DNA from: Trichuris trichiura
Lineage: Eukaryota; Nematoda; Enoplea; Trichinellida; Trichuridae
Assembly (NCBI GenBank): GCA_037903355.1
Contig: JBAJFE010000026.1
Location: 2,232,001-2,296,000, forward strand
Direction of reading: 5' to 3'
DNA: 64,000 bases
A program made the translations under genes and the position numbers. Under the pieces are notes generated by a model that was given only the letters and a program-made list of their open reading frames with translations, was not told the DNA's origin and made no database searches. The first letter of the stretch is position 1. Each line of letters starts with the position of its first letter. Shown piece by piece: positions 17,798 through 56,800 of this stretch.

Positions 17798-20700
17798 ATG
17801 TTACCTGTTGATGAAGCTTTGAAAGTCATCTTTGAGGAGCTAAAAACGTATGAAAAGCAGTCTGTTCTACTTCCCGTTGATAGCGCGAATGATCATGTTC
17901 TAACTGAACCTGTGTACTCTCCGGAACCGTTGCCAGCGTTTGCTGCCTCGATTAAAGACGGCTATGCAGTAATTGGTGAAACTTCTTTTTCAGTTATTTG
18001 ACTAGTCTGGCTACAATTATACTTAAGCTGCTGATGGTGACGGACTTCGAAAGGTGCTTCAGCCGGAAGGTTTTGGCAGCCACGTAAGGGATCATTACTG
18101 TGTCCATTTACCAAAGTGAATCAGTCCTTTATTGTTTTACGTAGCAAGAATTTCATAGTGGATCTTCAGATTCACGGGTTTGGCCTGTTGGACGTATCTG
18201 TAAGTAAACTCCAAAATGCCCTACCAACGGATGGATGAGCAAATTGTAAGAGAAAATACAAAACAATTTGTATACCGTACGTTTCGGAACTGCTCTTGTT
18301 CCGTCGTCAGCAGTATGAGGGAGGAACACGAGCAGTTCCGAAACGTACGGTATACACAATGTTCTGTATTTTCTCTTACAATTTGCTCATCCATCCGTTG
18401 GTAGGGCATTTTGAAGTTTACTTACAGATACATCCGACAGGCCAAACCCGTGAACCAGAGGAACAACTATGAAACAACTCCGGCCTGTTAAAAGACATCC
18501 TGTCTTTCGAAGCAAGAATTTAAGGAATTGCAACCCTCGTTCGCAGATTTCTTTATAAAATGTTTTCAGAATGATCTCATCCTACAACCTGGATACTGCA
18601 AACGAGTCAATACTGGTGCTCCACTGATTGAAGGAGCTGATGCGGTGGTTGAAGTAGAGCAAACAGAACTGTTCGATGCAACGGTAGTGCGATGGAATCA
18701 TATAGCTGCTGTCTGATTAATGTGCACACTTTAAAGGATGATAAAGAGGACATCATTAAGATTAGGAAGGCTGCTCAGGTGGGACAAGACGTAAGGTATC
18801 TCGTTATGGGATGTTTTGTAAGGTACACGTTAATCGTCATGGAAAAATCACGTTAGACCCGCCTTTAGTATTAAGGTCAAAATTATAGCAAAGTTTTCCG
18901 GATTCACCAGATCCCATTATCAGCGTCTTAATGGTGGTCAGAATGATAGTGACTATTCTGTTAAGGGTAACAGTTTTCAGAGCGCTCCAATTCTAAATTT
19001 TTGTCTTTATTCTTTGTTCTTGTCTTTATTCCAATGCTATCTAGATTTTGGTTAATCGAATACGATGATTTTTGTCACTGCTGTTCATTATTAAGGTGCC
19101 AACGGTTGGATCTAGGGAATTCTGAAAACTTTGTTGTAATTACAATTTTTAAAATTAAAAAAGGGCTGATGTGACTTTGCCATAAACGATGCGATGTCCA
19201 ATGCAATTATTTTCTGTTAAGTTGCCTATGGCCAGTATCGTTTTGCATTGTAGACAAATTGGATGTGATGTTGCGATGGGAGAATGCATATTGAGTGCAG
19301 GTTTCCGTCTCACTTCTTCGGAAACGTCTGTTTTAAACAGCGTTGGTGTACGAGATGTAAAAGTTGCCAAAAAGCCTTCAATCGGAATAGTGTCAACTGG
19401 TGACGAGATATGCGAGCACTCTATCAACCCTTTACCCTATGGAAAAGTTCGAGATACGAACAGACCAATGTTAATTTCTTTGATGAGGGAACATGGTTTT
19501 GGCGCTGATGATTTTGGAATTGTGCCTGACGAGTAAGCTTAATGTCTATGAATGGTTATTTTACTTCACTCCTTTCAGGCCAGACAGCATATTAGCTTTG
19601 TTCAAAATGGCATTCAAAAGTGCTGACGTTATTATCAGTTCTGGTGGAATGTCCATGGGCGATAGAGACTTGCTGAAAGAAGTACTAATGCAAGACTTAG
19701 GATTCGAGTTGCATTTTGGACGAGTTTTCATGAAACCTGGGTGAAATCATGCTTGATTTGTTATAAAATTGCCATTGGCTTTTTTCCTTAGCAAACCAAC
19801 AGCTTTCATGAGTGGGTATATGTATGACAGGAAGAAGTTTTTCTTTGGCCTTCCAGGCAATCCCGTGTCCGCATGGGTTACTGCTCATGTATGTGTTCTG
19901 CCTGCATTATTCCGCATGGAAGGGCAGCATTGCGATCCTTTTCCAATTGTTTCAGTTACAGTAAGTATTCCGAATTTCTTTTCTAAATGACGAAAGAAAT
20001 GTTTCCAGTGTTTTCATATTACTATTTTCCTTTTACCATAGTTCTGAATGTTGAATATTGGTCTGTACCAGTTAGAAACGTTGTTCTTTCATCACAGTCT
20101 AAAACGAAACGAAAATTTCGGGGAAAGCATTTCCGGTTTTGGTTAATCGATTCTCACTGGGGTAACATTGGTGACGGGGAGGTCTTCTCTAAAAGCTTTC
20201 TTTCTTTCGAAGTTCAGTAAATGGACTTATATTAATACTAAGAAATTTTGCCTAGAGAAAGATGATATAGAAACTGTACTCACTTGAGTAAAGGGATCCT
20301 GTCAGTTGTGCGTCTCACTGATTGAAAAATGCGGGTTTCTTTTGGGCAAGCATGCGGACATCCTGTTATGCATTTACTTAAACCTAAGCTAAAGAATAAG
20401 CCTTATGTTTAGGCTAGCGCTTAGGCAGGGGAAGAACATGTTGGGCGGCGAGCTTACAATGCGAAGGTGAAGAGCATCACTGACGAGCTTGATATTTCGA
20501 TTATACTGATGCTGAACTGTAGATAGCACAGGAAAAGCGGTTTAATCAATCCCCGTTAGTATGCAACAAGAAAAATTTCCTAACTTTCAGAAACTGTTCC
20601 ACAGAGCTGTGCATTAAAATCAGTCGGTGAAAACGGAAATAGTTTCCAAAAGCCACGATATCTTTTTTTGCTGCATACTAACGGGGATTAAACCGCTTTT

Positions 20701-21073
20701 ACTGGTATACAACACGTCCATTGCGTTGAAGCAGATGGATTGCAGTGCTCCGATTATTTAAATTGGTAATTGGAGCTTCTTTCTCCCGTTGCCTTTCCCA
20801 TTCTTTCCGCGCATATTAAGGGCTTTCTCGCTTTAGGTTGACAGCTCTTATGACCTCGATCCGCGTCCTGAATACGTTAGAGCTTTCTATTCAGCCGATG
20901 GCGGCACGAAACCTTGGCATGCGAAAATTTTTGATCATAATCAGTCTAGCAGTCGACTGATGAGTATCAGACATACCAATATGCTTTTAATGTTACCACA
21001 ATGGACAGTTGAACGTACTAAAATTAACGCTGGTGAGATTGTTCAAGGAATCATCGTACGTTTGCATGTCTGA
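17798..21073 (+). CDS. MoeA/gephyrin E-domain molybdopterin molybdotransferase
   Basis: Molybdenum cofactor synthesis enzyme that inserts molybdate into molybdopterin; the E domain of gephyrin/Cnx1 and bacterial MoeA. Exons: (17574-17631, 17748 onward) to 17975, 18028-18083, 18570-18683, 18737-18795, 19254-19532, 19579-19740, 19792-19960, 20837-21073. Landmarks: PAFAASIKDGYAV, RVNTGAPLIEGADAVVEVEQ, VGQDVRQIGCDV, IGIVSTGDEI, GKVRDTNRPMLISLM, the active-site block SADVIISSGGMSMGDRD, HFGRVFMKPG, FFGLPGNPVSAWVTAHV, and C-terminal domain IV (DLDPRPEYVRAF, RLMSIRHTNMLLMLP). The frame is intact throughout. No MogA-like G domain is found upstream, where a divergent gene starts 0.7 kb away, so this looks like a stand-alone E-domain protein, unlike fused animal gephyrin. 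ATG 17798 is the conservative start; a short 5' exon could extend it. Two introns contain fold-back repeats (18154-18510, 20533-20701). Confidence 0.9.
18154..18510 (-). mobile_element. Palindromic hammerhead-bearing element, copy A
   Basis: 357-bp insertion in an intron (18084-18569) of the gephyrin-like gene, flanked by an 11-bp direct repeat AGCAAGAATTT (18143-18153 and 18511-18521), a target-site duplication. On the minus strand it reads: about 40-nt unpaired head (CTTTTTAACAGG-like), then two arms of about 130 bp forming an almost perfect inverted repeat around a central hairpin. The arms include the core CCCTACCAACGGATGGATGA, shared with copy B at 50 kb. The head of copy B also aligns with this head, so both belong to one family in opposite orientations. 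The central region carries a hammerhead-like motif (separate entry). No coding capacity. Confidence 0.85.
18272..18316 (-). ncRNA. Hammerhead-ribozyme-like motif, copy A
   Basis: On the minus strand: AUACUG (stem I 3' strand), core CUGACGA, one C, stem II GGAAC/GUUCC with 7-nt loop AAGAGCA, core GAA, self-complementary ACGU as a minimal stem III, then A at the cleavage position, then CGGUAU. AUACUG and CGGUAU pair over 6 bp (one G-U) as stem I. This fits a minimal type I hammerhead of the kind known from Penelope-like and other retroelements, whose very short stem III works best in dimers. One C between the CUGACGA box and stem II is not canonical. Catalysis is untested. Confidence 0.65.
20533..20701. 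repeat. Fold-back palindrome in gephyrin-like intron
   Basis: Inverted repeat of about 40 bp arms: AAAAGCGGTTTAAT...CCCCGTTAGTATGCA at 20533-20575 and its complement at about 20670-20701, separated by about 90 bp. It sits in the 876-bp intron 19961-20836. No convincing target-site duplication and no clear hammerhead core; perhaps an older relative of the palindromic elements. Confidence 0.7.
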
Positions 21074-24000
21074 TTGTCGTTGCTTTTCCATTTTTTTTTT
21101 GCAACGTTTCTCACTTGCTTCTTGCCACAATCGTTGAAGTGTACGTCCGTTAGCCTGATAACATAAATTGGATCGCATAATGTCGGCTGGCAAAACACTG
21201 TGCGCATCTGCCTTGTATTAACAAATTATTTGCTTATGCCAGAGTCAATTTTATCCACACTACAGACTTGCGCTACCTTTCTGCATTTACAGGTTAAATC
21301 ATTTGTAAGAAATTGCTGTTTTTCAACCTGCAAACTGGCTTAAATTTTGACAAGGCGCAGTGTGATTTAAATGCATCACTTTTTAAAACAGTTTTGCTAC
21401 TTTTCTTATAACGGAGAGAAATAGTCTTAAGGATCAATTTCGTAGTACGAAACGCAATTTATTTTAGACAATCAGGTTATCTTAATTGTATGCGAGTTAC
21501 GATGCACAGTTTCACGTACTCATTACTTCGTGGTTGATACTTGGTTTTTCGCGCGTTTAATATTGTTTTGTAAGTACAATGCTATCTTTTATGTCTCACT
21601 GTTTCTGTAAATCAACGATGTTGCTGCGGGTTCTAATGTTCGGTAATAACTGTCTTTCTTACCAAGATACTGTTTAGCGGTGCTACGCATTCGGTAAAAA
21701 ATATCTCTTCACGCAAAGTCTAATTCACGGGTGGAAAAACTTTGCTTTCGTGCTTCTTTGTAAACGCATTAAAATATGGTATTTAGCGATGCTCTATTGA
21801 AACTCTAACTTTGTGCTAACCACGAAAAATTGTGGTTGAATCAGAAACAGACAGTTGTGTAAGTTCAGTATTAATTTTTTTCGATTTCAATTAAAACTTT
21901 TTTTGAAGGCTGTTTTGCTATTTGCAGCCGCTCGTCGAAAGTATACCATTGAACGGCATCTTGAACTTTTACATTTGTGAAAGGAAAAGAGACATTTATT
22001 TGAACAACGAAAGAAGGTTCAAACGTTCTCGCAGCTTTCAGAACTTATGCTGCTTCGTTTTCCACGCTTTGCTGGCGTTGAAAGCAGAGAACGATAGATG
22101 CCGACAGCAATGCGAGATTTGAGTAGTTCAAGCAACCGCTCAGTGATAACATGTGTAATCGTCCTTTGATTTTAATTGTAAGTACTGAGTAGACGAACTG
22201 CTTGTCTCGCACCGGTTTGTATGCGGCATTTACCACGTATGCTGAACCGTTCGTTTTGATCTTGGTAAAGGTATGATGTTGTCTGTTGCGCGAACAGGAG
22301 TACGTTACGAAACAGATGCTTTAACGCCATGGAGTCCCTATGTGCTCAGGGCACGTCGCAGCGAAACATTTGCCAAGCATTGACAATCAAAAGATCCTTT
22401 CTAGCGATCTCGATCGTAACAATGTTCTCCAGCATGTACGCTGCTAGATTTTAAGGCAACATGTGAGATTTCCATTAGCATTGGTTTTTCGAACAGTTTC
22501 TAAGTTGATACAAAAATAGGTTATCCAAGAAACGTTAATTTTCTGTAACTTTCTAATCTGGTTTGTATACCAAAAGTTTCCATGGCATTTGGGCCCGAAC
22601 TGTTTATTGAGGTGAGCACTGCTTTCGTTATTTGCATGATGGCATTCATTCCTCTTGACACTTAGCAACGTTCTTCATAAGAAAACGAATATCAGGCCAT
22701 TCGATGTGAAAGTAGTCATCGGTCAACCCAAGAGTGGTGGTCTTCGTTGCTTCAATGATCTGAGCTTTCGGAGTGAACATTTTTCCCGTCAGTGTTTACT
22801 AGTTGATAGGTTTACTGGTTCGGAGTCATCGTCCGCGTATATACGGGCATTATTATTTCAAAGAGCGTTTTGTAACGGGCGGTTTCTCCTTTTTAATGGT
22901 TTGGTTACCTCTTGATGTTGTCCAGTAAATGTGTGATCACTGAGAACAAATCATTAGTCAATGGAAGGTCGGGAGATGTACCATCAAAAGCTGACCAACG
23001 TTTAAACATGCAGAAGTATGTCTCTTTTGGAACTAACATGTGCACAGAAATGAACAGATCATTTTTATTATGTCATGATCAAACTGGCCTATGCTTCGCT
23101 AACGTTAGCGCTCCTCAGATAAAGAGAGTTCTTTTGATCTCTCTGTGCCTTGAAACGTAAACCTTTTAGCTTCAGGTCGTTTGAACATTGAAAGGAATAT
23201 TCAGCCTCTGGGGATGCGTTGGCTGCATCTTGAATGACCTGTCTATCCAATTTTTGTTTTATCTACTGCTGTATCTGCCAGTCGTTTTTGTGACTGAATT
23301 TGTTGCATTAAAAGTGCAGCTTTCTTGTCCGGGTATGTTGAATTCAGTAACGGGCTACAGAGAACAACCCGTAATAATTCCGGCTCATACATTCTTTAGC
23401 GAGTCTTGTCGATCCGTATTCCTTTTTAAGGTTCATTAGCATGCGTATGCCTGTTCTTTAAGCCCTATCAAGAAAGGCAGGCTGTTGCAAAAATACGAAG
23501 TGCTTAAGAACTGCTTTTTCTGAACGGAAACATACTGTTTTCGTTGTTCAGCCGGTCACCTAATATATACGCTAGTGCAGAGTGCCCATTTTGTTAATTA
23601 TTGACATTGATGTTGTAATACCGTTGAAATCATTGTTTCTCAGCCTTTTCCCCACCGTCACCTTAGGCGTTTTTGTCCCCCCTGGAGACTGAAATTTTCC
23701 CTGTCCTCTGTCTTACGCATTCACTTGGGCACTGATACTTTGACGTCGTTTTGGGGTGCGATAAACTTGGACAGATGGCCTGTGGCTTTCTGTATCATGG
23801 TCCGTTTTCCTTCTGGCGGCAGGCCAAGTTGGGATGACCCTGATCAGTGGCTATGGCGAAGATTAGCATAGTAAAATGGGCTGCCAAAAAGCGCGTACCC
23901 ACTGCGATAGTAATGGCCTCGTCGTAATCGCCTGTGTTTACGGTTACGAGACCGAGTACTCTTCTGGAGTTCAGATTGCTCCTTCTACGGACAAATAGTT

Positions 24001-25300
24001 TTCAGAAGAACGCCCTTTGCGAACACGTGCTGCTGTTCACATCGTTAAGGTGGCTGTTTCTAATGCCCAGTATTTATTTGCTCACGTTGCAGATCATGTT
24101 GGTTCAGCGCACTGGGTTGAGATTCATTCATTCATGCCAAACGAACAGTAGAATGAATTTTTTATCCATGTGCTAACGACTAGTTTTTGCATGCCGAAGC
24201 GAAACTAATTTTTTAACGTTTGGTTGCATGTTTGTAACCACGGGCGCAAACCATGGAGGAAAAACTTTCATTTGCTAGCTCAGCGCAAACGGCCGAGCAA
24301 CAATGACGCGCAGACATCCATAGTCAAGCTAGCCATAGGCACTTGTGATTTACGTGAAATGGAATTTTTTTTCACTAAAAGATGTACTGGACGTAGTGAC
24401 GTCACGTCGAAATTCGTCGGCCTCTTCCTGTACTTCACCGGCATAAGTGAACAACAAACTTCCGCTCGTGGCCTTTTGTAGAGGAGACTACTGTTGCATC
24501 AGCAGTTCATTGCCTTCTTTTTGAGGAGATTACGACAGTCCCAAGCACTGAATCATCCCTTTGGGCTTTTTTTTGCCTCGTTGGTTTCCATCGTCCCCCA
24601 CTATACTCGGTTTAAATTGTCCCCGATTTAAACTATAGACTTCGTCAGAAGATACCTTATTCGGTAGCTAACAAAATCCGTGTGTCATTCACGCATTGTT
24701 TAAAGTACTTTTTCTTGCACTTCTTCGTTACCTACGCAACTTGACCTACTGGTGATGAAACCAGGGAAGTTTTGAAGACAGTACAAAGTAAAAGTTGATA
24801 CCAGTGTATCGTGATTTAATAGTTCGATTTAATAGTTAATACACTTGTTGTCTTCGAAGATGAAATTGTTGGATAAAATTTACAAAATTGTGAGCAATAA
24901 GTGATCAATTCATTGCAGAGCTCCGCAACGTTGATTCATTGAATCCCTACAGTTTCGGGTCGTATGTTAATGGGTTAACTTAAACTCTTCTATTTTAAAT
25001 TAGATTATGTAAAAGTGTGGACATTATAATTTCACTTTAAAGTTTATACACTAAGTTGAAAAAGTCTAGAATGTTGCAACATAGAGATTTAAGTTTTGCC
25101 ATGTTTCACATTTCTTTTAGCAATATCAGGCAGTTTGCACATCTATGAGTAGACTTATTGCGCGTGGAAAGATTGCAAAGTGCGTTGGCACAGATTCATT
25201 TTTCATGCATAGGTTTCCTGTTTGTTCGTTTACGCGTTAATGTTGATGTTAACAAAAAAACTGCTAATAAAGCACTTGTCATTTTAGTAACATTCCAAAA
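21074..25300. other. Gene-poor interval
   Basis: 4.2 kb in which I recognise no gene, tRNA or rRNA. Open frames here (longest about 86 codons) show no family signature, no consistent splice sites and no trans-splice-like acceptor at the ATG. A G+C-richer patch at 23,640-24,600 with C-runs may be an old decayed repeat. At the right end TTTTAG lies about 15 bp before the LRR1 ATG. Confidence 0.4.
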
Positions 25301-26774
25301 ATGGCGTCAAGATGTAAAGTCAAAATTATCGCAGGTAATGAAGTTGTGCAGCGTTTGGCCCAATGTGATATAGCGATACTGCAAGATGAGTCATCCCATC
25401 CTTTCTTCTTTCTTCATCTCCGCATTGGGGTGATGGAGAGGTGTTTCAGCTTTAGCAGGTTAGTTAAAATCAGCACCCGATTCGCGGAAGAAGGGAAGAT
25501 CACGCTTACGTTTTCGCCGAATACTTCTGTCTTCCTCTCGGAGGTAGGTGTCAGATTATTTGAATCAGTCTTGCTAATGCTGATGTGGTATCAATTTAAA
25601 TAGTTGTAATCAGCAGAGCAGTTACTGTTTTAAGAAAAATTGCCTGCAGCTTATACTTAAGGATGAAGTAAAGTTTCTAGTGATTTGCTTTAGTGATTAT
25701 TCGAAATCAGCGTAAACTGGTAGTGATAAAAAACGATCACTTGACATTTCAACTAAACTTTTTGTTTTTTTCGTGTAGGAACCGTTGCGTTTGTTTGGCA
25801 AAAGCTATCTTCTCTAGTGCTAGTAATATTAGCTTTATCAATTGGTGTTTTGCGTGGTTTGCTTCTCAATTCGCTCCTTATGACATTCCCTTTAGGTTGA
25901 TAATTGTCTTTTGAAAAAACTGTGTGATTCTTTTGGCCTTGACAATCTGACATCGAAATTTACACATGGGCAGACGGTCTTCCACTTGTCTTCCTCTGTT
26001 TTCGATGATGGAACTTCGCTGAACTTTGGATCGGATGTTTCAAATTTGAAGGCTGTGTTTATTGATACTTGTTGTTTTCACTCGGGAACGGTTTCCTGTA
26101 ACCTGAGTTCTTTGGTGAAACTTAATTGCCTAAGGTTTGCTTGCTGCAATATCAAAGCATTCACTGCTACATTTTGGCTGAATGTACCAAAAACGGTATC
26201 CTATCTCGACTTGAGGGGCAACAGGTTGCAACATTTGTCTGAATTAATTTGCGAATTGCCGTTAGCTTCATTGAACGTCAGTGGAAACAAGCTTCGTAAG
26301 CTTCCAAAGAACATCGGTCGTTTGAGGGGCACATTACGTTACCTGAACGTAGCCAGTAACCGACTTAGAAGTTTGCCTTATAGCTTGGAATCTTTGAGGC
26401 TGAGAGAATTGATTGCGTTCGAAAACAGGTTTCGCTATGACGGTTGCGACTTTTCTATGCGTGTGAGAAGGCTCCCTCGTCTTCAAGAAATTGCTGCTGC
26501 GCAAGTTGAAATGAGCGGGTGAGCTTTATTTGTAAAGTTTTTTTCCTATTGTTCGCTATTTAGCATTGATACTACCAACCTGTCCGTACCATGCAAGGTT
26601 ATAATGAATGGAATAGAGCGTTGTGCAAAGTGTCACGTAGCTGTGCACGTATCACAATGTGTGTTCAGACCACGTCGTTTTAGACCGTCAGTGTGCTGTG
26701 AAGAGTTTTCGTGCGGCCATTTTTCAATTAACATATGTTGCTTTTTACCCCTGTGCAGGCGATGCTTTCCTTAA
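25301..26774 (+). CDS. lrr-1: LRR1-like leucine-rich-repeat protein, CUL2 substrate receptor
   Basis: Ortholog of LRR1/PPIL5, substrate receptor of a nuclear CUL2 ubiquitin ligase that in animals removes the CMG helicase from terminated replisomes. Exons: 25301-25543, 25896-26518, 26564-26774; 358 aa against about 414 in human. The N-terminal domain ends RFAEEGKITLTFSPNTSVFL, paralleling the human FVDEGKATVRLKEPPVDICL. It then has LRRs (YLDLRGNRLQHLSELICELP, SLNVSGNKLRKLPKNIGRL, YLNVASNRLRSLPYSLESL), the post-LRR segment RLPRLQEIAAAQV, and a Cys-rich C-terminal domain (RCAKCHVAVHVSQCVF, VCCEEFSC, CCFLPLCRRC) matching the family's CVCGRFC-containing end. The ATG is preceded by a TTTTAG acceptor. 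AATAAA at 26870. The middle exon acceptor (25895) was chosen because it restores phase. Confidence 0.88.
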
Positions 26775-35232: not shown

Positions 35233-36018
35233 CTTATAAGTGTTAATAGTTGACAGCCAGTGACTATTCCCTTTTTGCACCACTTGCATTTGATAGTGCA
35301 ATCGCTTCAAACTTAGTTTTTATTCAAATAAAGCCAACACAAAATTATTACTTTAGGAGAAGATTCTCCAATAACTTAAAATGTTATAATTGTAATAGTT
35401 TTTTATTTTTGCAAAATCTAGTTTAGAGGCCTTTTTGACTGATAGATGTTTTTGCTTTCCTCTATTGTGTCATGACAGTTTTGGGGGGTTGCTATCTTTT
35501 GGGCTTTCTATTCCAAGCGCGTTTGAGTGTTAATTCTGAAGAACGTGAATGTATGCAGTGGAAGAGCTGAATAAATCACCTGATTTCCTTCCTTGGCAAA
35601 GTGCGAGAAAGGAAAAAGTTTATCAGTCCTGATCCTCTTTGCTTACTTGTTTAGTTTGCGAAAGGAAGAAAATAAAGTAGCGTTTGCTTAGTATTGGCGA
35701 TGAAAGCAATGCTTTAATGCTCATTTGGTATTGACTTCTTTTTTAGCTGATTTGCTTAAGCTTGTGCTCATACAGTTACCATTGCTTGCCTTTAATATGT
35801 GATTCATTTATATCTCAACGTTACTTGTTAGTGTTTCTATGCACATGGTTATCCACTTCAAGGTAAACGTTCACTGCAAGACGAATTTAATAATAGCTAG
35901 AGCAGTTCGCGTGTTCTTAAATAATTGTATGAGAGAGAGTGAGAGAGAGCATAGATCTTTTTTCTTTATTGGTACGTCATCAAATTGGAGAGTGTTAAAG
36001 GTAGATATTAAACAACGG
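35233..36018. other. Convergent 3' region, Kunitz gene and cathepsin B
   Basis: Holds the Kunitz-gene poly(A) signal (AATAAA 35327-35332), a short GA-rich tract (about 35930-35950) and TTTATT at 35965-35970, which is AATAAA for the minus-strand cathepsin B gene. No further gene seen. Confidence 0.5.
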
Positions 36019-37310: not shown

Positions 37311-40300
37311 TGAGAGCGGTGAATCTGGTAAAGTGAGTTGCAAACCTTTGCTATGCTCAAAGGAGGCTTACGCGTCAGCTGTTGTCAGTGAGCATATGGT
37401 TTCCAACCGTCAAATCTGACAGATCACGTGTCGAAGACGTCGATGTCTTATTGCCTTGAGAAATGCTTGCGAAACAGATGACAAGTGTCAAGAAAGGGCG
37501 AAACTGAAATGGTCAGTGGTTACTTTCCACCTGAATGGCTAAATGACATTTTACTGCTGAGAGCATTTAGCCTAAGGTCATGGTCTAAATCAGAAAATGG
37601 CTGCACGTAAAGTTGCTTTATTGATTTTTGAGTGAAGTCCCTTCCAGGGCATTTCTCAACTGTTTGCGTTGAGATAACAGTGGTAAATTGAAGACACTCC
37701 ATTTCATGAGCGCTTCGTAAGTTTTCCGGGTTCTCTAAGGAGGCCACCTTTTTCATCCCAACCGTAAACATTGAACAAAACTGTTTTAAAATCTGCGTTT
37801 TTATTTTCCATTTTACGCGTGTTAGAACGAGCGTCTTGCAGCATCTGGAATGACTCAGAGTTTCAGATTGTTACAGTTTGTAGCGCTACATTTTCAATTA
37901 GCGTCTTATTGTTTCACAGAGAAATTGCGATTGGCAGAGAAGTTCAGCTTCAGAGACTGATTTAGGGTTTTGCTTGCTTGCTTGCTTGCACAGATTCTTC
38001 CGTTTTCTTATGCAAATATTCTGCACTTTTTCCTGCTTGGAAAAACTAAGGACGGAGAACGTTAAAGTTTGTCGACGGAGACAGCGAAGGAATAGGAAAG
38101 ACTAGCAGATAGAAGTAATTGTTTGCTTTCACTTCGCTGGAAGTGAAGTTGTACATGCTCTATTCTTACAGTTGAGCACTCTAGAAATAGGCAATAAAGC
38201 ACCTTGCAGTTGTAATGTTGTTTTACCTGATAAACTTCTGCGGAAAAATGCCAGACGCAGGACTTCAGTAGTTCTTTTAAAGAGAACAGTTTTTCCTCCT
38301 TTGTTAATTTTTGTCACACGTTTCTTGTAGCACTGATTACTAGGGTCACCGGTGAAAAAACGCTTGTTTGTCTCTTTTTGTACTCGCATAAGAGATATAG
38401 TGTGCCAGTGGAGAAAAATAGCTTTACGGAGTTACAACGTATTGAACGATCTGCTTACGTATCTTAAATCTTTTCGCGCTTTGGAACTCATGAACTGTTG
38501 CCATGCTTGGTTAAACTGGTCATTCCACCTTCATTCAGGGTGAATGGAAGCTAAGTATAAAATGAAGCTAAGCTGCAGCTGACGAAACTTCTTTTCCTTA
38601 TTCCAGCTTTTGTTGATGGAAATAGATGGTCTTAATTCCCAGTGTATATTGTTTTTAGTTTAATCACTTTTCGTTTATGTTTCTTTACTTGATGATAAGC
38701 GACTCAACTATGCTCCAGCTTTTCAAATAATGATTTCATGTTCAGGTGGTTTTGCTAGAGGTGGTATAATATTAAGGGCTACTTTTACGTAACTTCCACT
38801 TAGGAAAACGTAAACTTTTGCCGCAAATGCATACCTTTCGTCATAATGAATTTACTAATGGCAGACAGCTTTCAGGGTGTTATGCATTAGGACAACCTTG
38901 AGATCACTTAGGTTTTGTCGTACCCATTATTATTGCTGACTCAAAGCAACAAAAGTCAAGCGTACCGAGACCTGTCATAGAGCTTCACCTAAATCCATGG
39001 CTAAGGACAATAGGAGCGGCGATGGGTCGGCAAAATCCGTTTGTATGTGTCCTGCTGAACGGTTAGTTGAAATTAGACAGAGTCAAAGCATATTGTTCAA
39101 AGGTGGAATACAGGATTAATCTTCCAAAATGCAAACCCATTGATTTGGCACAGTATTTTTTTTGTAATTGGATTTCTTCATTACTTATTACTATCTTGCA
39201 ATATTTCCTTGTCCTTAAACGCGGTTTTTCCTTGTTTCAGCAGCTTACGATCAGTAGTTGTGAACTTTCAATAGCGTTTAGACGAATCAAGTACCATATA
39301 TTGCATTGCCTCAGAGAGCATATTTCAGCAGAAACATCGAACCTTAATGCCTCAGTAAAGCCGCTTTAAACGAGACGAAAATGCCCATTGGGACGAATGT
39401 TGAATACGCGAGCAGTCACGTTAGTAGTTCAAGTAGGAGTACACTTTATTTGTATGCAGATTGGTTTGTGCACGATTTAAAGTCTCGTAAAGGAAGGTTG
39501 TCTCACTAGATTTATGGCCTTCTATCAGACGCCTGCAGATGAATTTCTTTCTTCTTTAGTCGTTGCGTTTTAACAAAGACCATTGGTTAACTGTTTAAAT
39601 CAGGTTTGAGCAGCTGAACTACTTCAGATTTTGTTGACATACGAACACGTGATAAGTTTCCACTAAAGTATGCAAAAGTGGACAGTTTGAAGTATAATAA
39701 TTTATTCGGTACCGTGCTTATATTATCATCCAAGAAGGGTTTGATGATTGAAAATCAGTCTATTTTAATCTTCTGTTTTAGAACTATAATTGTTTTCACG
39801 GCATATTTGATGTAAATCAGATTCACACATGCGTGACTTACGAGTTGGGGAACGCTTTTTTTAATACACACTGTGCTCATAAGGTTTCTTTGCGTGCGAA
39901 AAAATGTGCAAGATTTGTGAAATAAATGCCATCGAAATAGGCATCTTAAAAGTATCAAGAATGTTCTTTGTGCGCAAAACGTGTTAACCTGTTTGCTAAA
40001 GAGTTGCAGAACCTTGTTGCCGATAGGAAAATTGAATCATCGGTAAAAGAAGGACGTAAAACAGGAAACTCTCAACTCTGCTGATGTCAAGTCATCGCGA
40101 AAACAATGGAACAACGGAGTATTCGTGGCCACATTACGTTAATTTCGTTTTAATTGAAGCAAATTAGGGTGGAGCTTTCGGGACTCGCTTAGATCTGTCA
40201 TCTTAAGCACACGAAGTAAGACGAAGGCGACCGGCCAAGTGATCCCGAAAGTCTCCAAAATTTTATTTCACTGAAAAGGGACCTAAAGTGATTTTGCCAT

Positions 40301-43300: not shown

Positions 43301-43304
43301 CTTG
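37311..43304. other. Gene-poor interval
   Basis: About 6 kb without a recognisable gene. Open frames up to about 118 codons have no family features. A GCTTGC tandem (37968-37990) and a degraded hammerhead-type repeat (40168-40256) are present. TTTATT at 42870-42875 may be the poly(A) signal of the minus-strand fibrinogen-related gene, which would place a 90-codon frame at 43214-42942 inside its 3'UTR. Confidence 0.4.
40168..40256 (-). repeat. Degraded hammerhead-type fold-back repeat, copy E
   Basis: On the minus strand the stretch GATGAC, then AGATC TAAGCGA GTCCC, then GAAAGCTCC aligns with the motif CTGATGAC + stem II + GAAAGCTC of the intact copies, but the first core bases and half of stem II are mutated. 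A second half-copy (CCCGAAAGTCTCC, + strand, 40243-40256) gives weak inverted symmetry, as in the palindromic copies. No target-site duplication identified. Confidence 0.45.
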
Positions 43305-46300: not shown

Positions 46301-47918
46301 GAAGAAGGATAAAAAAGAAAGCTTGCGTATTGGTTTAATATTATTTCGTTTAAGTAAGAAGGTAACATATCCTTGTAAAAGCTTCGGGAACTGAATTCCT
46401 GCCGTAATAAATGAAAATATTAATATTTAGTTGAAAAGAATTTATGTAATGTCATATTTGTTGAACAATAGTTTAGTCTGCGTTTTGTTTAGTTGTTATG
46501 TAAATGCGATATGAAAGTACGTTCAGAACTTGCGCAGGCGATGGCAACTTCCGTTCATGCCTTCTCTTAATCCGCATACATTAACGGTGCTCATGTTGAT
46601 AAGTAAAATTATGATTCTGTTGTTTTATGAGATAAAATGTCACTTACGGAATTTCTTTTCGAATCCTGTTGCAGTTGTCTTAATTTCAGCTATTTCCAGA
46701 TCTTGTTGCATGTCTCTATGCACTTCCTTAGCCGTGAATAAAGATTTGTTCAGAAACTGCAGATTTAGATAGTTAAGCTTGTCACCATAGCGCAGCAAGG
46801 TTGTTTCGAATCTGTTATTCCACTGCCTTGATTCCTGTACTGCATTGAAGTGATCCATCTGAACTTTTCGTATAGTATGTGCCAGGTTAATTGTTCGATT
46901 CAGAGGTGGCCATATTTCAGTAGCAACATGCTCTTTCAATTTTTTAACAGCTCTACCTAAATTTTCATCCATATTTTCGATCCTGTCCATTACTCGCTTT
47001 TCGATGGAGGGCAGTTGCTCGTGATAGTCTCTTAGTTGTGATTCAATTCTATGTACCTTTGCATGCATTACTACACATTCTTTCTCAATATTTTCTTGAC
47101 TTAACTTGATTTCTTCCATCCTTTTGAAAGCCTTGCAAATACATGCCACGCTGGTCAAACGCGTAGTAAGGGAAGCACGTAGACTTTGCTCTTCTTGTTC
47201 GGACGGTGGTGACAAACCACTGCCAAAATCCATGCTATCATCACTCGACTTAGAATGCATCATTGCAGTGAGCTCGTTTTCTTCACAGCGTTGTTCAGTT
47301 TCGCATGCATAAGCAGTCTTCATGTTAGAAGTCGTATTTCTTATGTCGATATCTATTTGGTTAAGACGCCTTTGGATTAGTGTGAAGAAGTAGTCAACCT
47401 TCTTTTCAAGAAAGTGGGTCTGGTTCAATGCCTTTTCGATCTGCTTTTCACTTTGTTCCATGTAGGCCAACAGATCGCTTGCTTGGTTTTCTTCCAAATT
47501 CTTAATAATTACAATGTCTTGGTCTGGAAGCGGCGCTTGCCGCCGTGAAAGAGCGCTTGATTCTTTTCTTGCATTCATTTGCGGGCGATTAGGTGGCATA
47601 CTAATCAATTCATCTTCTTCTATGGTATTTTGTTTGTTGTTAATCAATTCATTGACTTTGGTCCATAATCGCATATTGAGTACCTGCAGGTCATTCAGTC
47701 GACGTTGGTCGTTAATTCTGGGCAATGTAGGTAAATAATTTTGTACTCATCATGACTTGATGGGCTTACCTTGATCGTTTGAGGGAAAGAACTTGTTCGG
47801 TTAGTCGTGTTAATCGAATATTCGTATCCTTCCAGTCGCTGTTGACATTTTCTTCTATAGTTGCTGTGCACATGTGCAGGCGCAATATGCAGATTACAAA
47901 AATTGTCCTTATCACCAT
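43305..47918 (-). CDS. Coiled-coil fibrinogen-related protein (FReD domain)
   Basis: Extracellular or type II membrane protein: N-terminal hydrophobic segment, long coiled coil, C-terminal fibrinogen-like domain. Minus-strand exons: 47918-47770, 47717-46648, 44889-44701, 43924-43305; about 675 aa. The start MVIRTIFVICILRLHMCTA could be a signal peptide or an anchor. About 400 residues of heptad-like sequence follow (NIRLTRLTEQVLSLKRS, LRDYHEQLPSIEKRVMDRI). An acidic DSMDFGSGLSPP in the middle resembles a glycosaminoglycan attachment site. The FReD has DCLQETPAKFATYQSGLYLI, CDMEDNGGGWTVIQQR, FWLGNEVIHLLT, the Ca-binding loop DQDHDASSTHCANFYESGWW, and the closing MKIRPS. The cysteines of the domain are kept. 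A 1.76-kb intron separates coiled coil and FReD. The ATG follows the acceptor-like CTGGACAG. Function (lectin, signalling ligand or receptor) cannot be told from sequence. Confidence 0.88.
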
Positions 47919-49911
47919 CGATGAGTGCTGTCCAGAAATAGGATATCAAATAAACTTGTGGGTAAGATAAGGTTCCAAAGAAAAACTGTACGCGTGACAC
48001 AGATCTTTTCATCGATACCAGTGTTGGCCTTTCTGTTGCGCAATATAATTAGTCTCTGTTGGAAGCAAATCGTGTTGGCAACTATTCCATTTACTGCGCA
48101 GCCGTGCTATTCATTAGCCTTCCCTCCTTGCCAACGTGAGTGCAATTAACAATCACTCGCTTGGGTATCTTCATGCCAATTAATGATGTCAGGCCATGGG
48201 AATAAATCACTGTTCAAAATCACTGCTGTAATGTAATTCGCCAACGTAGAACTTCAACGGCAGAGAATTGCACTTTGGCGTAATGTCAGAGTTGTTTGGG
48301 CGGTTTCAAAAATATTTATTTTACTTAAGCATTATTTTAAATGATACACTCAGGGCTGCTGCATCCCATTCACGTTTTCAGTTAGGGAGCATTAGCGTGA
48401 TTGTCATGTTCTGTTGGGTATGGAGCTAATGAGTTGGTTTAAACTTTTATGTGGGCAGAAAGTGTTAACGCAGGTAGTTAAGAAAATGATTAGCGCAGTG
48501 TGGTAACCTGCCTAAATCCTGCTTTTTAAGTCAAACGTCGGTTAGTAACAACGCTAATGTTGAACGAACAGTTATCTGTTATTCTTACATATTGGTAACA
48601 AGTAAAGCGTGTAACAAGCATCAATTGGCCTTTCAGCAATAAAAGACAGGTTTGCTTTCATCTCACATTTTTTTAGTCTTCAAAACTCAGATGCGCTGTT
48701 TTCAGAATGCGTAGCATCTGTTTTTCAAACCTACAGCCGTTGTGACGTCTATAGTAACGTTTATTCTGCTAAGTTTACCAGCCACTTCGTCAGAACTTTT
48801 TACTCCGCTTGACTTGTTGCTTATTGCTTCCCTATCATTAGTCAGCAGCTTTGCCGCCATTCAAAGAACTCACAAATTTGACGTTTCCTCTTGTTCGTTT
48901 ATACGTCATTGTGTAACACTTTCTATTTTCACTATCCATTTTAGAGGATGTTTTGCCTGCGTCCATATACATTTCGCTTAATGGTATTTGTCATTAATTA
49001 GCATAAAAATCTGAGATCATCGCCATTCGTTAGTTTTTTTTGACATCCTTCAGAATGGAGCTGATAGGTCTGCTGATAGGTTGGGTTGCGAAAGCATGCT
49101 TAAGCGCATGCAAGTTGTTGACCTCATAGTTAGCTCTGAAGTTATTTGGTCTTATTATTTCGCATCATTGGTGTTCCTTGTGGCTTGTTCAGTTTGAACG
49201 GGTGCTTTCACCTTTTTGTTACTGATCTTAATCTATCATTCACACATCGAAATATTGGTAGAACAAGTTTACCTTTCTCGCACTGCCGATTGGGCTGTTA
49301 TTAATCACTGCATGAAAACTTGGTAACATAATTGGTATGCCAAAGATGACAGTGTTCCTCCTCGCTTGAAAAAATGTCAAAGCCTTTCAATTAATTCGCG
49401 CCTTCAGCTCTATGTGCCAGAATTTTAGTTCGTTTAAGTAAAACAGAATTGAATTTCGTTTTGAATTCAGAATAAACAAACTGAAGAGATCAAGCTATGT
49501 GTATACACTATTCCTACATTTTGAAGTGCTATACACATGCTTGTCAGATTGTTATTTCGTCTTCATTCTCTGATATTACTGTAATTATTCTGTCGAGGCA
49601 ATCATACGTGATTACCATCGCTACAAATATTATTGTTGCTATTATTTAAGCGCTCAGTATTGCCAAAAGAAATGAAACAAGGACAATTAGTCGACTGTAA
49701 AACTGCCTGGCTAAATCTGGGATGTCGAACGAATGCTCCGTATTTGCTTCTTATAGCTTAATGTACCATCGACTGAAAAATGTAGCACACCAGGATGAAG
49801 TGGACTCTTTTTCTGCGTTTTAATTGTTGAATTTGGGGCGATACAGACCGTCATAAGAACGATAACTTTCTTGATCACTACGAAAGATGCACTAATAATC
49901 AGTTGCCATTT
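47919..49911. other. Intergenic region
   Basis: About 2 kb upstream of the fibrinogen-related gene, without a recognised gene or RNA. Contains that gene's promoter and ends with the 13-bp left target duplication (49899-49911) of element C. Confidence 0.4.
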
Positions 49912-50117
49912 GATTCTTCTTTTTTCTTCTTTCTTCTCTCCTTGCTAACGGGTGCGTTATTCAGAATAAAAATTTTTTGCGGCTTTGCTACCCATTCGTT
50001 AAAAACGTTTATTTCTAAACGTTAACCCGCGGAGCTTTCAGGCCTCACCGGGGCCAGTCATCAGCGCTACGTGCGCCGCCCGTCGGGTCAGTCATGTTAG
50101 CAAGCCGCCATTTCAAG
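49912..50117 (-). mobile_element. Truncated hammerhead-bearing SINE-like element, copy C
   Basis: 206-bp insertion flanked by the 13-bp direct repeat TCAGTTGCCATTT (49899-49911 and 50118-50130). Read on the minus strand it begins GCGGCTTGCTAACATG and continues GACCCGACGGGCGGCGC, matching copy D at 53.7 kb for about 55 bp before the hammerhead motif and again across it. It ends in a purine/A-rich tail (GAAGAAAAAAGAAGAA). The tRNA-like head of copy D is missing, so this is a 5'-truncated copy, as expected of retroposition. Confidence 0.8.
50029..50066 (-). ncRNA. Hammerhead-ribozyme-like motif, copy C
   Basis: Minus strand: GCG, core CUGAUGA, C, stem II UGGCC/GGCCU (4 bp) with loop CCGGUGA, core GAA, tetranucleotide AGCU, C at the cleavage position, then CGC pairing with GCG as a short stem I. 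Stem II is wholly different from copies A, B and D yet still pairs. Confidence 0.6.
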
Positions 50118-50174
50118 TCAGTTGCCATTTTCTGCATAAAAGTTTATTGCTTAATTATTATTAATAGTAAAATA

Positions 50175-50527
50175 TCTTGAAGACGGGGTGCTTCTTAACA
50201 GGGCAATGGATTTTCATCACTACTTCATACGGTATGTTTTTTTGCCCGTTGATGGATTCTGAAATTAAACCGAAGCAAATGCCCTACCAACGGATGGATG
50301 AGCAATTATTAAGGAAAAATACAGAACAAGTACTTAAAACAGTTGACCATTACCACCATCGCTGACGACGGGACAAGGTCAGTCCCGAAAGCTCCGAACT
50401 GTTTTAAGTACTGGTTCTGTATTTTTCCTTAATAATTGCTCATCCATCCGTTGGTAGGGCATTTGCTTCGGTTTAATTTCAGAATCCATCAACGGGCAAG
50501 AAAACATACCGTATGAAGTAGTGATGA
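50175..50527 (+). mobile_element. Palindromic hammerhead-bearing element, copy B
   Basis: 353-bp insertion between 13-bp direct repeats TAATAGTAAAATA (50162-50174, 50528-50540). A 40-nt head (contains CTTCTTAACAGGG) is followed by inverted arms of about 130 bp that start CATCACTACTTCATACGG and include CCCTACCAACGGATGGATGA. The arms mirror each other almost perfectly within this copy but differ strongly from copy A outside the shared core. The loop region holds the hammerhead-like motif. Non-coding. It lies only 45 bp from copy C. Confidence 0.85.
50359..50396 (+). ncRNA. Hammerhead-ribozyme-like motif, copy B
   Basis: UCG, core CUGACGA, C, stem II GGGAC/GUCCC with loop AAGGUCA, core GAA, tetranucleotide AGCU, C at the cleavage position, then CGA pairing with UCG (3 bp, weak stem I). 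Orientation agrees with the orientation of the host element. Confidence 0.6.
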
Positions 50528-50865
50528 TAATAGTAAAATAAACAAATTGAGTAATACTTTAAATGCTAACGTGAGTTTGTTATACACTAAGGCACTTTTA
50601 ATTGACCTCGTGCTAAGGCCTTTGCAGGGTAGTGAATTGCGTTTCTTGTTCGCATAGCGAGGAAGAAAGAAAAAAGAAAAATTAAATCGTGTTCATGATT
50701 AGCAAATGTTGCTCTATCTTTTATCTTTTATCGTTTTTGTCCAGCGCGATTAACTAACGGTTCTATGTTCCACAATCTCTAATCAGACCCGCTTTTTTCC
50801 TCCATTGTTCTTGTTCTGAGTGTAAGACTATTTTGATTAAAAACATGAAAATGTGCGTTGTGTAC

Positions 50866-50911
<46 letters not shown>
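50866..50911. repeat. TAT trinucleotide microsatellite
   Basis: About fifteen uninterrupted TAT/ATT units, directly followed by a short TACTGC variant. Simple repeat; no gene context. Confidence 0.95.
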
Positions 50912-50913
<2 letters not shown>

Positions 50914-51128
50914 TGCTACTGTCGTTCTTGTCCGTGGTTCGGTTCAACTTTCTGTGGTTGCTTTATGAACATTGAAAGAGTGCTTTTTAAGCATGGAAGT
51001 ATCATTTATCGCTTTCACAATTCTGTTGCGTAGTTTACTTCAAAAAAAAAAATTGTCTTACAAATAGCGCTGAACAACTTTCTCGCACCATATTTCTTTG
51101 TAAAGTGGCCTTTAGCGAGCATACGAAT

Positions 51129-52809
<1,681 letters not shown>

Positions 52810-53596
52810 GGTCAGGTTTCAATAGGAACGAGAACGGCACACCACGCTATAAGTAGTTTCACCTGCAGTAGGAGTTAGCAGGGTTTCTCATGATGTTAAA
52901 TAGTGAAGCCAGAATTGTTGTCAGTAAGTCTTAAGAACAAATGACATACTGCGCAGCTGGTATCTTTCTCTCTGTATTTCTTTGCGTACGCGAAAATAAA
53001 TAGGCCAAGTGAACGTACCTCAAGGATGTGCGACCAAGTGTAAACCTTGCAAGGGGCTGATATGATTATGTCTACATTCGCTGAGTGACATTAATCTTCA
53101 CAACCTTTGTACTGAGCTATTTGATTGCTTGCAAATATTAGATAGGAAATGCCTCATCTTGTATACACTATGTTGAAAAATTTGCTTCATTTGTAGATAA
53201 AAAGCGTCGATTAGGTGAAACTTTGGGTTTTCTTAACCAAGTACCAAATCGCCATCTTCGTTTAATGTTTCAATCATTGCTTAATAGCTATTAATATTAT
53301 TAGTCTTTGCAGAATAGTTTAATCGTGAATCAGGTTTCTGAAAAAAAATTGTTTAGCATACAGGCAGAAGTCTCATAGCGTCTCGAGTCCCAGAAATAAG
53401 AAGCTATAACGGAAAGGGAGCAAAATGCATCACTATTAAAATTGCACAATCCTTAACGCGGAAGCGGCACTGCGAAGACGCTTTCGGCGACGTGGAAATT
53501 GTGATAGACGAACTGAATGTATGAGAATCTGGAATGCATTTTGTCCTGATAATTGCTTGACTAGTTTGCAGTGTGAAAATTAGAATGGTAACCGGA
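52810..53596. other. Upstream region of aspartyl protease
   Basis: Promoter-side flank without a recognised gene, ending with the left 10-bp target duplication GGTAACCGGA (53587-53596) of element D. Confidence 0.4.
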
Positions 53597-53885
53597 TTTA
53601 GGTTTGTTAATGTGCCGCCGTCGCGGAAGGTCGGTTGGACGCTCGCTGCACCGTCTGACTGGCTAAGCGGGACTGAAGCCCGACGGTTCGAGACAGAGCT
53701 CACGGGTAAGGTCTCTGCCAAAGTTAGTCGGATGGAGGGGCTTGCAACCATAAAGACCGACCCGACGGGCGGCGCAATTACGCTGATGACGGGTCATGAG
53801 TGGACCCGAAAGCTTAGTAAAATAAACGTTTCTGCAATAAACGTTTAATAAACAACGGGTCAAAAATTCCGCGAAAAAACTATAG
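53597..53885 (+). mobile_element. tRNA-headed SINE carrying a hammerhead-like motif, copy D
   Basis: 289-bp element between 10-bp direct repeats GGTAACCGGA (53587-53596, 53886-53895). It has pol III type 2 promoter boxes: A box TGGCTAAGCGGG at 53660-53671 and B box GGTTCGAGACA at 53685-53695, so the head appears tRNA-derived. Downstream come GACCCGACGGGCGGCGC, the hammerhead-like motif and an A/T-rich tail with AATAAACGTTT twice. The architecture (pol III head plus hammerhead) recalls the schistosome Sm-alpha family. Copy C is a 5'-truncated relative. Non-coding. Confidence 0.78.
53778..53820 (+). ncRNA. Hammerhead-ribozyme-like motif, copy D
   Basis: UUACG, core CUGAUGA, C, stem II GGGUC/GACCC with loop AUGAGUG, core GAA, tetranucleotide AGCU, U at the cleavage position, then AGUAA. 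UUAC/GUAA would pair as stem I with an A-G mismatch next to the core. Core bases are complete; activity unknown. Confidence 0.6.
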
Positions 53886-56800
53886 GGTAACCGGACTTTT
53901 CCTTTTGTTATTATGCTCACACTAACGATTTTTTTTCAGTAGTAGTCAAAAGAGTAAGGTGGCAAATGTATCCCCGTTAAAGGGAAAACTCGACATCTCA
54001 TCAAAATAGTGGTTTTGTTTTCAGCATACAGTCATTATAGTAGATTATACAAAAGCTCCGTCTTTAAAGCCTTTGACTAGCACAGCAAAAGCGGGATTCA
54101 TCACAACCCCATTCGTTGCATTTGGAAGGTCTACTGACGTAACGGTTCTAAACTTTTGTCAGCTATTCGTTACCTATTTTAAGCTGTGCCTCCTTTCCTT
54201 AGTCAGCTGCTCAATTAGCCGTTACAACAGCTTCAGTCATGTCAACAGGATCTTTTATGCAAGCGAGCCAATGAATCTTTTTCGTCAGTACGTTACAAGG
54301 AATCCCATCTTTAATAGCATTCATTCAATTTACGAAATACAGTGCAATAGTTATATGCAATGCTTGCACGTGAAAGAATGCGTGACGAACAATAGGCTAG
54401 TTTCTCTGAAGAAAGCTTTAACTGCAGTGAAATGGACTTAACGAATCCTTTTAATCTATTCATGATTTCGGACCGTTGTAAAATAGATCTTTGTCTATAG
54501 GTTTGTGGAACATTCTAGTCCCGTTTTTAGCGAAGAATGAAAGAATTCAGGTCATACGGTAGAGTAACAAAGCGTAAATGCTTTGCATCTTTAAATGTAA
54601 ATATGGTGCCTTAGGAAAATTAGTGTTTGTAACATGAGCCATGTTCATCATTTTTTCCAGTCAGGGCTTAAATAAAAAGCAAATTTACTGGCAGCCAAGT
54701 GTCACTGAGCTTCCGGAACTGAACCGTCTTGTCGTCAGCATAAAATTGTATTGATCACCAATAATGCCTGGTTTTCTTTGTTAGCCCTACGTGCTGTCTG
54801 CTTTGCAGCACTGAGACTAAACATCAGCTTTGTGTAGACCTGAGCTGAGGTACAATTATCTTTCTTTATCGAAAATGAGACTTCGCGCACAATGAGGTGC
54901 CATTGAAATCATATCTGGTTTATACCGCACGATTCTGGCTAGGTTGACCATGAGTGCATCTGGGTCCCATGTATGGGGTATTCTTCTCTTGATCCTCCAA
55001 CGTTCCAATTACATTTTCGCATCGGTTAATGTTGGCTGGGTATAACTTGAATCTTTCTTCAACGGTTGTTTAGCTTCTACAGTGCAGAGGGTGACGCAGT
55101 CGCACCTTTTAGAAGGTCGCTGAGCATGTGTTGTTAGCTCATCTAGAAAGGATCGTAGCTGGAGGCTGAGGTAATGATACCATGAAGTCCTAAGTTTTGG
55201 TTAGTCTACTAATGTTTTTCCTCTCTGAACCCATGTGTAAAGGGCAGGTGTTAGGGACCGGCGTAGATGGTGAATTTTCATAACACTGTGATACAAGTTT
55301 TGTTATCCACAATCTTAGATTGTCCCTCTTTCAAATAGGTGGAACGGAAGAAGTGTTCACGATGTCACTGTAGGCTCTCCAGGACATAAACCAGGTTCGA
55401 CGCTTGAATAAGCATTTTTTCATCAAAACAATTAAGTTAATAACGAAACATCGGGTTCTCATGACTTGCGGTAAGAGTGACGATTCGTGAGGACAGCGTA
55501 CAATGAAATATTCCCTGGAAGTATAGACAAAAGGAGTTGGAAACATACGTAGCCGTTGACTCAACGTTACTCCACTTGGAGACGAAGGAAGCCAGTCCCG
55601 TAAGTTCTCGTTTTCAGTCAAACAGGCTTTCCCTTATGCGTTGACTGTTAGAAGGAAGAGTATACAACAACACTCTTATTCCCGCTTAGTTGGTTCTAAG
55701 TGAAATATTAATAATATTTAGCTGTAAATATGATCAGCAAGCAGAGAACCTGTAAATCGAGGGAATAGCTTTGACACCATTCAATTGCCACTGTCTTTTA
55801 ATCTTAAAAAACAGTGATGATAGTTAGTGAAGTTCGTGCCGCTGTTTTGGTCTCGCGCCTTGACCATCTTAGCCTCTGAGAAACTTTTACCTGTGAAACG
55901 TATACCGGCTTCCTGAGACTGTATTCTTTTAAATCCATTTTGCTTTGGACCAACCGAGAGTCCTAACTGATTAAAGCCTGCGTGCACTGAAGATTAATGG
56001 AATTTGCAGACAGTAACGGCGGTTTAAAAACATCTTCTGAGGACATCAACATCGAAGGCTTGCCGTGGTAAAGCCGTTTGTCGGCGACAGCGGACGATGC
56101 TCTCCTACCGTCTCAGTGCGATTGTTTTAATGTGTTTTAGAGTCATATACATACGCACAGGCCAGTGCAACTTAACAGAAAAAAACTGGCTGTGCTACTG
56201 AACGTCAAAACCTCGTGTAGGCAGTTAACCTTATTATTGCTACAAGTCCTGCGTTCTACAGGATTCTTTCAAATGAGCCCGTCACTAGAATGCCTGAGGT
56301 TCCATCGAAGAAAAGCATTGTTTTGTGTTTGGTAGAGCGCACGCAAAATTTGCTATTAGAAACTAGGAATTTCCCCATTATTAACCTTCTACTGGTTTGG
56401 GACTAAATCGAAGCGCAAACGCAGTCAGTTTTCCAGTGACATCACTTATCAGTTCGCCCTGATGTCTTTTATCATGATTTGAACAGGACCCCGCAGCAAC
56501 ATTTGCCCGCCAGTTATCTCATGCTAGATTCAAGCTTACACCGAAGCGCTATCCAGTCGGCTACCTTTTTTGCTTGCTGCTTGTCATGCTCTGCTCGACT
56601 TAGCAACGTTAGGCGATTTTGAAATAAGATTCTCAGGACAATTCGTTTCAGCATAACAATTCTGATAATGTGCTGCTGACGCAGGCTTTAACGGCTGTTA
56701 TGACTCAATAATGGCGACCTACGTTGTTAAGAACGTGTGTTAATTTAAATTGTTCATTGATTAAAATAATTCTGTTGCTTTAGAGCATTGACTAAATGCT

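Follow-up and report, generated by a model that had tools for sequence, protein, structure and literature searches.

Hammerhead-type, predicted self-cleaving motifs with an extra core base in a family linked to Penelope-like retroelements of the whipworm Trichuris trichiura

Minimal hammerhead ribozymes in Penelope-like elements (PLEs), and their cleavage as dimers, have already been published (PMC6155905, PMC7761336), and these papers attribute the minimal type I form in PLEs to Cervera and de la Pena 2014 and Lunse et al. 2017. PLE hammerheads are widespread, and a review states that their activity in vivo and their role "are still a mystery" (PMC7761336). Here we describe a related family in Trichuris trichiura, beginning with a stretch of 64,000 nucleotides (contig JBAJFE010000026.1, positions 2,232,001 to 2,296,000 of the forward strand; hereafter the window) in which a preliminary description had noticed four hammerhead-like motifs. 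Compared through the citing papers, the motifs resemble the minimal type I hammerheads of PLEs in their type I order, in a helix III without its non-conserved part, in their thousands of dispersed copies and in their location in a pseudo-long terminal repeat (pseudo-LTR); for the described hammerheads, dimer cleavage is reported or expected. They are unlike them in that stem II is separated from A9 by one extra base, mostly C or T, and in that they occur in a whipworm. Hammerhead numbering follows general knowledge and the cited papers. Our analysis indicates, with a probability of about 0.8, that the motifs are minimal type I hammerhead ribozymes of whipworm PLEs, with a loopless stem III, presumably active as a dimer and predicted to cleave. 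This conclusion rests on four observations, namely the motif itself, the covariation of its stems, a rule for the cleavage base and the linkage to PLEs.

Three other systems are relevant for comparison. The (+) hammerhead of chrysanthemum chlorotic mottle viroid (CChMVd) is a natural hammerhead with an extra nucleotide, A10, at exactly the same position, between A9 and G10.1. In trans-cleaving form the extra A was reported to lower the rate moderately and C or G to be strongly harmful, while U raised the rate 3-4-fold (PMC3705267). However, the viroid has A where the whipworm family has C or U, and there the carrier is a viroid whereas here it is a retroelement with a 3-bp stem I and a loopless stem III. 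Insertions at other places of the hammerhead core were weak or tolerated in tests (PMC3088659). The Poseidon PLE of Anolis (PAc) is likewise an element with reverse transcriptase (RT) and GIY-YIG domains and a hammerhead in its terminal repeat; this hammerhead needed its protein in vitro, and an extra base is not mentioned in the portions of that paper available to us (PMC11167929). Animal non-LTR retrozymes also carry type I hammerheads in short non-coding repeats, but these form tandem direct repeats and circular RNA (PMC7229834), whereas the whipworm copies are mostly single or head-to-head inverted. Literature searches for hammerhead with Trichuris, or with nematode and Penelope, gave no report of a nematode hammerhead, judging by titles. 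No published report of the extra-base form was found either, in a search that did not cover the 2014 and 2017 papers defining the minimal PLE hammerheads. Minimal PLE hammerheads are thus known, and what appears to be new is a near-constant extra core base in a nematode family.

Direct reading of the window sequence placed the four copies where they had been claimed, with CTGA beginning at 18310 (−), 50064 (−), 50362 (+) and 53783 (+), and confirmed the order of the motif, the seven-base loops, the tetranucleotides and the cleavage bases A, C, C and U. They were also recovered by R1, a covariance model built from 42 distinct copies on contig C1, with the window copies left out (E-values are rough). 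Copy 1 (18273..18315, −) has stem I CTG/CGG, CTGACGA, the extra C, stem II GGAAC/GTTCC, GAA, ACGT and A as the cleavage base H17 (18278), with cleavage predicted between 18278 and 18277 (R1 30.2 bits, E 4.4e-7). Copy 2 (50027..50069, −) has stem I GCG/CGC, CTGATGA, the extra C, stem II GGCC/GGCC, GAA, AGCT and C at H17 (50032; 47.4 bits, E 1.7e-12). Copy 3 (50357..50399, +) consists of stem I TCG/CGA, CTGACGA, the extra C, stem II GGGAC/GTCCC, GAA, AGCT and C at H17 (50394), with predicted cleavage at 50394|50395 (55.2 bits, E 6.6e-15). In copy 4 (53778..53820, +), stem I is ACG/AGT with one mismatch, followed by CTGATGA, the extra C, stem II GGGTC/GACCC, GAA, AGCT and U at H17 (53815; 52.3 bits, E 5.3e-14). 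The 3-bp stem I, which the preliminary description lacked, is complete in the first three copies, where copy 1 has one G-U pair, and has two of its three pairs in copy 4. Stem II had been described as always paired; this holds for copies 1, 3 and 4 but not for copy 2, where GGCC/GGCC is closed by a basal T-T mismatch. A lax descriptor found 10 sites in the window, including the four copies, versus a mean of 1.1 in 40 dinucleotide shuffles. The shared core, spacing and tail of the four copies are therefore not due to chance.

We then searched the genome (72.7 Mb, 62 contigs), using each pattern read backwards as its control. CTGAYGAC-N15-19-GAAAGCT had 1,148 + 1,164 = 2,312 matches, versus 2 + 1 = 3 for the control. 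When position 7 was a purine and the extra base a pyrimidine, there were 1,031 + 1,027 = 2,058 matches (control 5), a count that covers the core pattern and not the stems. In 162 + 174 = 336 matches (control 3) the extra base is not C, and ACGT replaced AGCT in 210 + 230 = 440 (control 4). These four classes should not overlap because each differs at a fixed base; they sum to 5,146 matches and their controls to 15. The exact matches of both the Y7 and the R7 type carry the hammerhead core C3U4G5A6N7G8A9 with G12A13A14. The 100 ACGT matches listed, of the 440, form one subfamily with the stem-loop GGAACA[AC]GAGCAGTTCC or one close to it. The change from AGCT to ACGT noticed in the window thus exists, but it had been taken as compensatory, and among the matches listed it is confined to one subfamily; it was probably a single event rather than repeated covariation. 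Judged by sequence, the four window motifs belong to a PLE-linked family of several thousand hammerhead-type, predicted self-cleaving motifs. The extra base before stem II, C in the four copies and already singled out as the main departure from the canonical fold, is a trait of this family and not only of those copies.

For the structure we took the 100 places listed for the exact pattern, all of which fall on contig C1 (as far as 2.95 Mb on the plus strand and 1.81 Mb on the minus strand), and read about 1.5 kb to either side of each. Together with seven minus-strand neighbours this gave 107 exact copies, 74 of them distinct over the motif and its edges. Pairs 1-3 of stem I are formed in 96, 100 and 100 of the 107 copies, whereas pair 4 is formed in 13. 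The five pairs of stem II are formed in 97, 102, 96, 102 and 100. Across eight pairs in 42 of the 74 distinct rows, 85.4% of 336 cells were paired versus 67.8% in shuffles, and 58 cells were changed on both sides versus 18.8 +/- 3.5. When the partner was slid by one column, pairing fell to 34.5% or 54.1%. The number of pairs with any double change was hardly above the shuffles (7 observed versus 5.8 shuffled; 127 of 500 shuffles were as high). Compensatory change in stem II beyond the window is supported by these 42 distinct rows, in which stems I and II both covary. At H17 the 107 copies have 62 C, 29 T, 16 A and no G; across the genome, 31 of the 2,312 exact matches have G in this place (control 1). 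The near absence of G at the cleavage base and the covariation of both stems favour the hammerhead-like reading proposed earlier. The sequence is also compatible with the proposed minimal stem III: its A...U is retained within a self-complementary AGCU or ACGU tail, which for want of a loop would need two motifs to pair. Two-molecule folding did not produce this pairing. In the C1 clusters with TCA/TGA, TCG/CGA or CCG/CGG as stem I, pairwise matches often stop about 13-20 nt upstream of the core; this sharp border is not accounted for by the predicted cleavage site.

RVT_1 and GIY-YIG together are the domain set of Penelope-like elements. Four frames adjoining the motif were scanned; three matched RVT_1 (1.6e-14 and 1.2e-8) or GIY-YIG (1.8e-5), in adjacent frames, and the fourth had no match. 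The motifs are therefore borne by a retroelement, as had been suspected, and the best named outside relatives of the RT, proteins of Trichuris suis and T. muris, indicate a nematode family. From 2,439 first-look candidates, 83 loci were scored as close RT copies, and our motif lists cover five of the RT loci by coordinates. At four of these five, a same-strand motif lies 473, 706, 701 and 668 nt downstream of the RT match, and at two of the five there is also one upstream. R1 finds motifs near the frames in the element loci L085-L089. Three of the elements, L085, L086 and L087, were chosen because they bear a motif, and L087 has one motif after the frame. The RT copy C1:5524816, which was chosen from the RT list and of which both ends were read, has same-strand motifs at L088:1257 and L089:852, 2,995 nt apart, with a GIY-YIG stretch read by eye in frame 2 of L089. 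Direct copies on both sides of the frame thus occur in some elements only, and this motif-frame-motif layout is the one described for PLEs, in which the frame stands between two pseudo-LTRs. Upstream of the C1:5524816 element (L088:1-1230) there is an antisense stretch with RT-coding sequence, read by eye, which gives a head-to-head pattern of coding length.

The earlier suggestion of a short interspersed element (SINE)-like origin fares less well. Strings resembling box A and box B lie upstream of copy 4, at about 53660-53700, when compared by eye with consensus strings, and would fit a tRNA-derived SINE family carrying a hammerhead. But Rfam finds no tRNA match at E<=5, and the strings are not kept in 16 aligned relatives, so this origin is hardly credible.

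Several results weigh against the ribozyme reading. The Rfam hammerhead models, which the preliminary description had proposed as a check, gave no match in the window (threshold E<=10) and none in five element loci (E<=5). Hammerhead_1 (RF00163) and Hammerhead_3 (RF00008) gave no match genome-wide either, in a weak test that scored 68 and 73 candidates and gave no match in any of 14 control genomes. Some elements depart from the expected layout: the RT locus at 827010, one of the five checked, has no listed motif nearby, and L085 and L086 have a motif after the frame but an inverted rather than a direct copy before it. In energy folding of five single motifs, stem I appeared with stem II only in W2, while W1 took another fold, and the two-molecule fold favoured a long duplex over a double hammerhead. 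W3, W4 and the L087 copy favoured a hairpin in which the extra C pairs with G12 and the upstream GCU pairs with AGC. Finally, the consensus core has no nucleotide between A9 and stem II whereas this family does, and the commonest base there, C, is the one reported as strongly harmful in the CChMVd hammerhead (PMC3705267).

The hairpin found by folding could be the conserved object itself, an RNA or DNA hairpin serving as an RT start or as a protein-binding site and not a hammerhead. The extra C and stem II would then pair with stem II' and G12 (six pairs), and the upstream GCU with the downstream AGC. At about -12 kcal/mol it is the minimum-energy fold of a single W3, W4 or L087 copy, and it would account for both the invariant AGC and the C before stem II. 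On the other hand, it leaves unexplained the covariation of the 3-bp stem I, with 21 double-changed cells at one pair, and the scarcity of G at H17. It also cannot form throughout the family, since position 2.1 is A in the TCA/TGA subfamily and unable to pair with C, and the GCU/AGC pairing is lost in the ACGT copies. A compensatory change from C10-G12 was looked for but was not decisive and gave no clear covariation, with T-A in 34 matches (control 5) versus C-A in 135 (control 2) and C-G in 2,312. We consider a plain hairpin improbable. With a hammerhead as the preferred reading, the W3-type hairpin may represent an off state in these folding models, though it is unable to form in all subfamilies.

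The family departs from the consensus hammerhead by this one extra base, mostly C or T. Stem II pairing in the C1 copies holds in the register that leaves one nucleotide after A9. Of the 74 distinct copies, 47 have G-C, 13 G-T and 4 A-T as the first stem II pair following the extra base, and 10 are unpaired there; because this next pair fits 10.1-11.1, the extra base reads as an insertion. Among the 100 matches listed of the 336 with a base other than C, T was found 80 times, A 16 and G 4. Several T-type copies are, among the matches listed, both arms of an inverted pair, which suggests on sequence evidence that the U form itself has been mobile. The form without an extra base, CTGAYGAGG-N10-16-CCGAAAGCT, had 5 matches (control 0) under a pattern that, unlike the one used for the C form, also fixes GG/CC in stem II; some of these 5 could be G insertions.

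The extra C may be read in two further ways. The motifs could be relics whose core is kept for binding of the PLE reverse transcriptase, with catalysis switched off through the extra C. The CChMVd result for C agrees with this (PMC3705267), and so do the Anolis PLE hammerhead mutants, which still insert in vitro, with no reads starting or ending at the presumed cleavage site (PMC11167929). However, without cleavage there would be no obvious reason for G to be scarce at H17, and the core recurs in clusters whose flanks one comparison did not link, although its constancy is partly by construction, being required by the search pattern. We regard relics as unlikely. Under the preferred reading of active hammerheads, a slow or assisted ribozyme is predicted because C is common at the extra position and harmful in CChMVd. 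The extra pyrimidine could even be a built-in brake, in which C10-G12 pairing would keep a lone transcript in the inactive hairpin until dimerisation or RT binding returned G12 to the core and allowed cleavage; this idea is speculative, and we would place it among the possible rather than the probable.

The insertions have a characteristic arrangement. An inverted partner within 800 bp was found on the 5' side of 60 of the 107 C1 copies but on the 3' side of only 5 (53 and 5 of 100 without the seven neighbour copies). The tails therefore face outward in head-to-head pairs. Direct repeats, which in retrozymes are tandem and 150-450 bp long with a motif in each, occur near 16 of the 107 copies and inverted partners near 67. 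Two palindromes of the window are such head-to-head pairs of element tails. The first (18151..18474) has arms of 159 nt, 91% identical and 6 nt apart; copy 1 sits in the middle and reads into the left arm. The two arms around copy 1 differ by one base in the loop, and both forms are common among the ACGT matches listed. The second (50210..50531) has arms of 135 nt, 98% identical and 52 nt apart, and copy 3 lies between them and reads into the right arm.

The excess of partners on the 5' side, with the motif facing outward, resembles terminal inverted repeats, and the carriers could be DNA transposons or foldback elements, bounded by long terminal inverted repeats and bearing the motif by chance. 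But the arms have many different inner starting points, direct copies flank the frame in some cases, and the coding partners in the four frames scanned are RT and GIY-YIG, not transposases. This explanation is very improbable. For a PLE, the arm pattern is compatible with, but no proof of, reverse transcription that started on both sides of a break from separate RNAs, and the enzyme of the Anolis PLE is able in vitro to cut both DNA strands and extend them (PMC11167929). Breakpoints were also considered as a record of cleavage in vivo, and this was rejected: 13 of 70 arms starting in or after the motif did so within 8 nt of the predicted site, none exactly there. AGCTH is included in several junctions, where it may represent microhomology and hence would be no evidence of cleavage. 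Two C1 copies, 1105968(-) and 1243718(+), begin in or beside (AAT)n-type microsatellites, which perhaps reflects a target preference.

R1 gave 11 matches in the window up to E 10, the last four of which are weak or partial (E 0.024-0.13). Three matches are decayed copies on the minus strand: 833..875, with C3 changed to U, A at position 7 and G12 changed to A (25.9 bits, E 9.5e-6); 40167..40212, with an insertion in the core (21.6 bits, E 2.1e-4); and 54702..54743, with the CTGACGAC at 54738 (19.2 bits, E 1.2e-3). Copy 4 lies in a repeat-family region (53603..53885, +), from about -180 to +102 of the motif, which is ~76-83% identical to copies elsewhere in the genome (blastn versus C1 copies, and alignment). 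In one subfamily, including window 53603-53782 and its aligned relatives, the ~180 nt upstream of the motif are GC-rich and conserved; this region is possibly another structured RNA, and Rfam gave no match at E<=5 on that stretch of the window. No PLE protein remnant was found in the window by tblastn with three queries at E<=1e-3. The interval between copies 3 and 4 also holds two neighbouring frames (51432-52160, −) with matches to the eukaryotic aspartyl protease domain PF00026 (E 1.1e-26 and 1.8e-33); they are probably exons of one host gene.

From these results we infer how the motifs would fold, dimerise, cleave and act in RNA processing. Each motif would combine a 3-bp stem I and a short stem II with the CUGANGA and GAA core and with a self-complementary stem III, which reads AGCU or, in one subfamily, ACGU. 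Lacking a loop, this stem III can form only between two motifs, so that the active form should be dimeric, with both motifs in one transcript or in two transcripts held together. The AGCU tails would pair between the motifs to make stem III, and cleavage would follow H17. Since a motif lies downstream, and sometimes also upstream, of the RT/GIY-YIG frame in the same orientation, tandem transcripts would be cut to unit-length RNA with 5'-OH ends. The window copies would be non-coding tail fragments left by insertion, and the extra pyrimidine, C or less often U, would be expected to make cleavage slow or partner-dependent.

Several thousand natural copies share an extra base at a position described, in the literature consulted, for a single viroid, and both the C and the T forms are present. 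One genome therefore offers a direct test of what position 10 does and of the part played by cleavage that depends on a dimer or a protein, and a search model of the R1 type is available for a family on which the Rfam models gave no hit, either in the window or in five element loci. If the extra pyrimidine were a brake, an entire radiation of nematode PLEs would depend on a regulated hammerhead, with the base reported as harmful in the viroid fixed and the U10 form a faster lineage; the head-to-head inserts would then be the trace of reverse transcription begun on both sides of a break.

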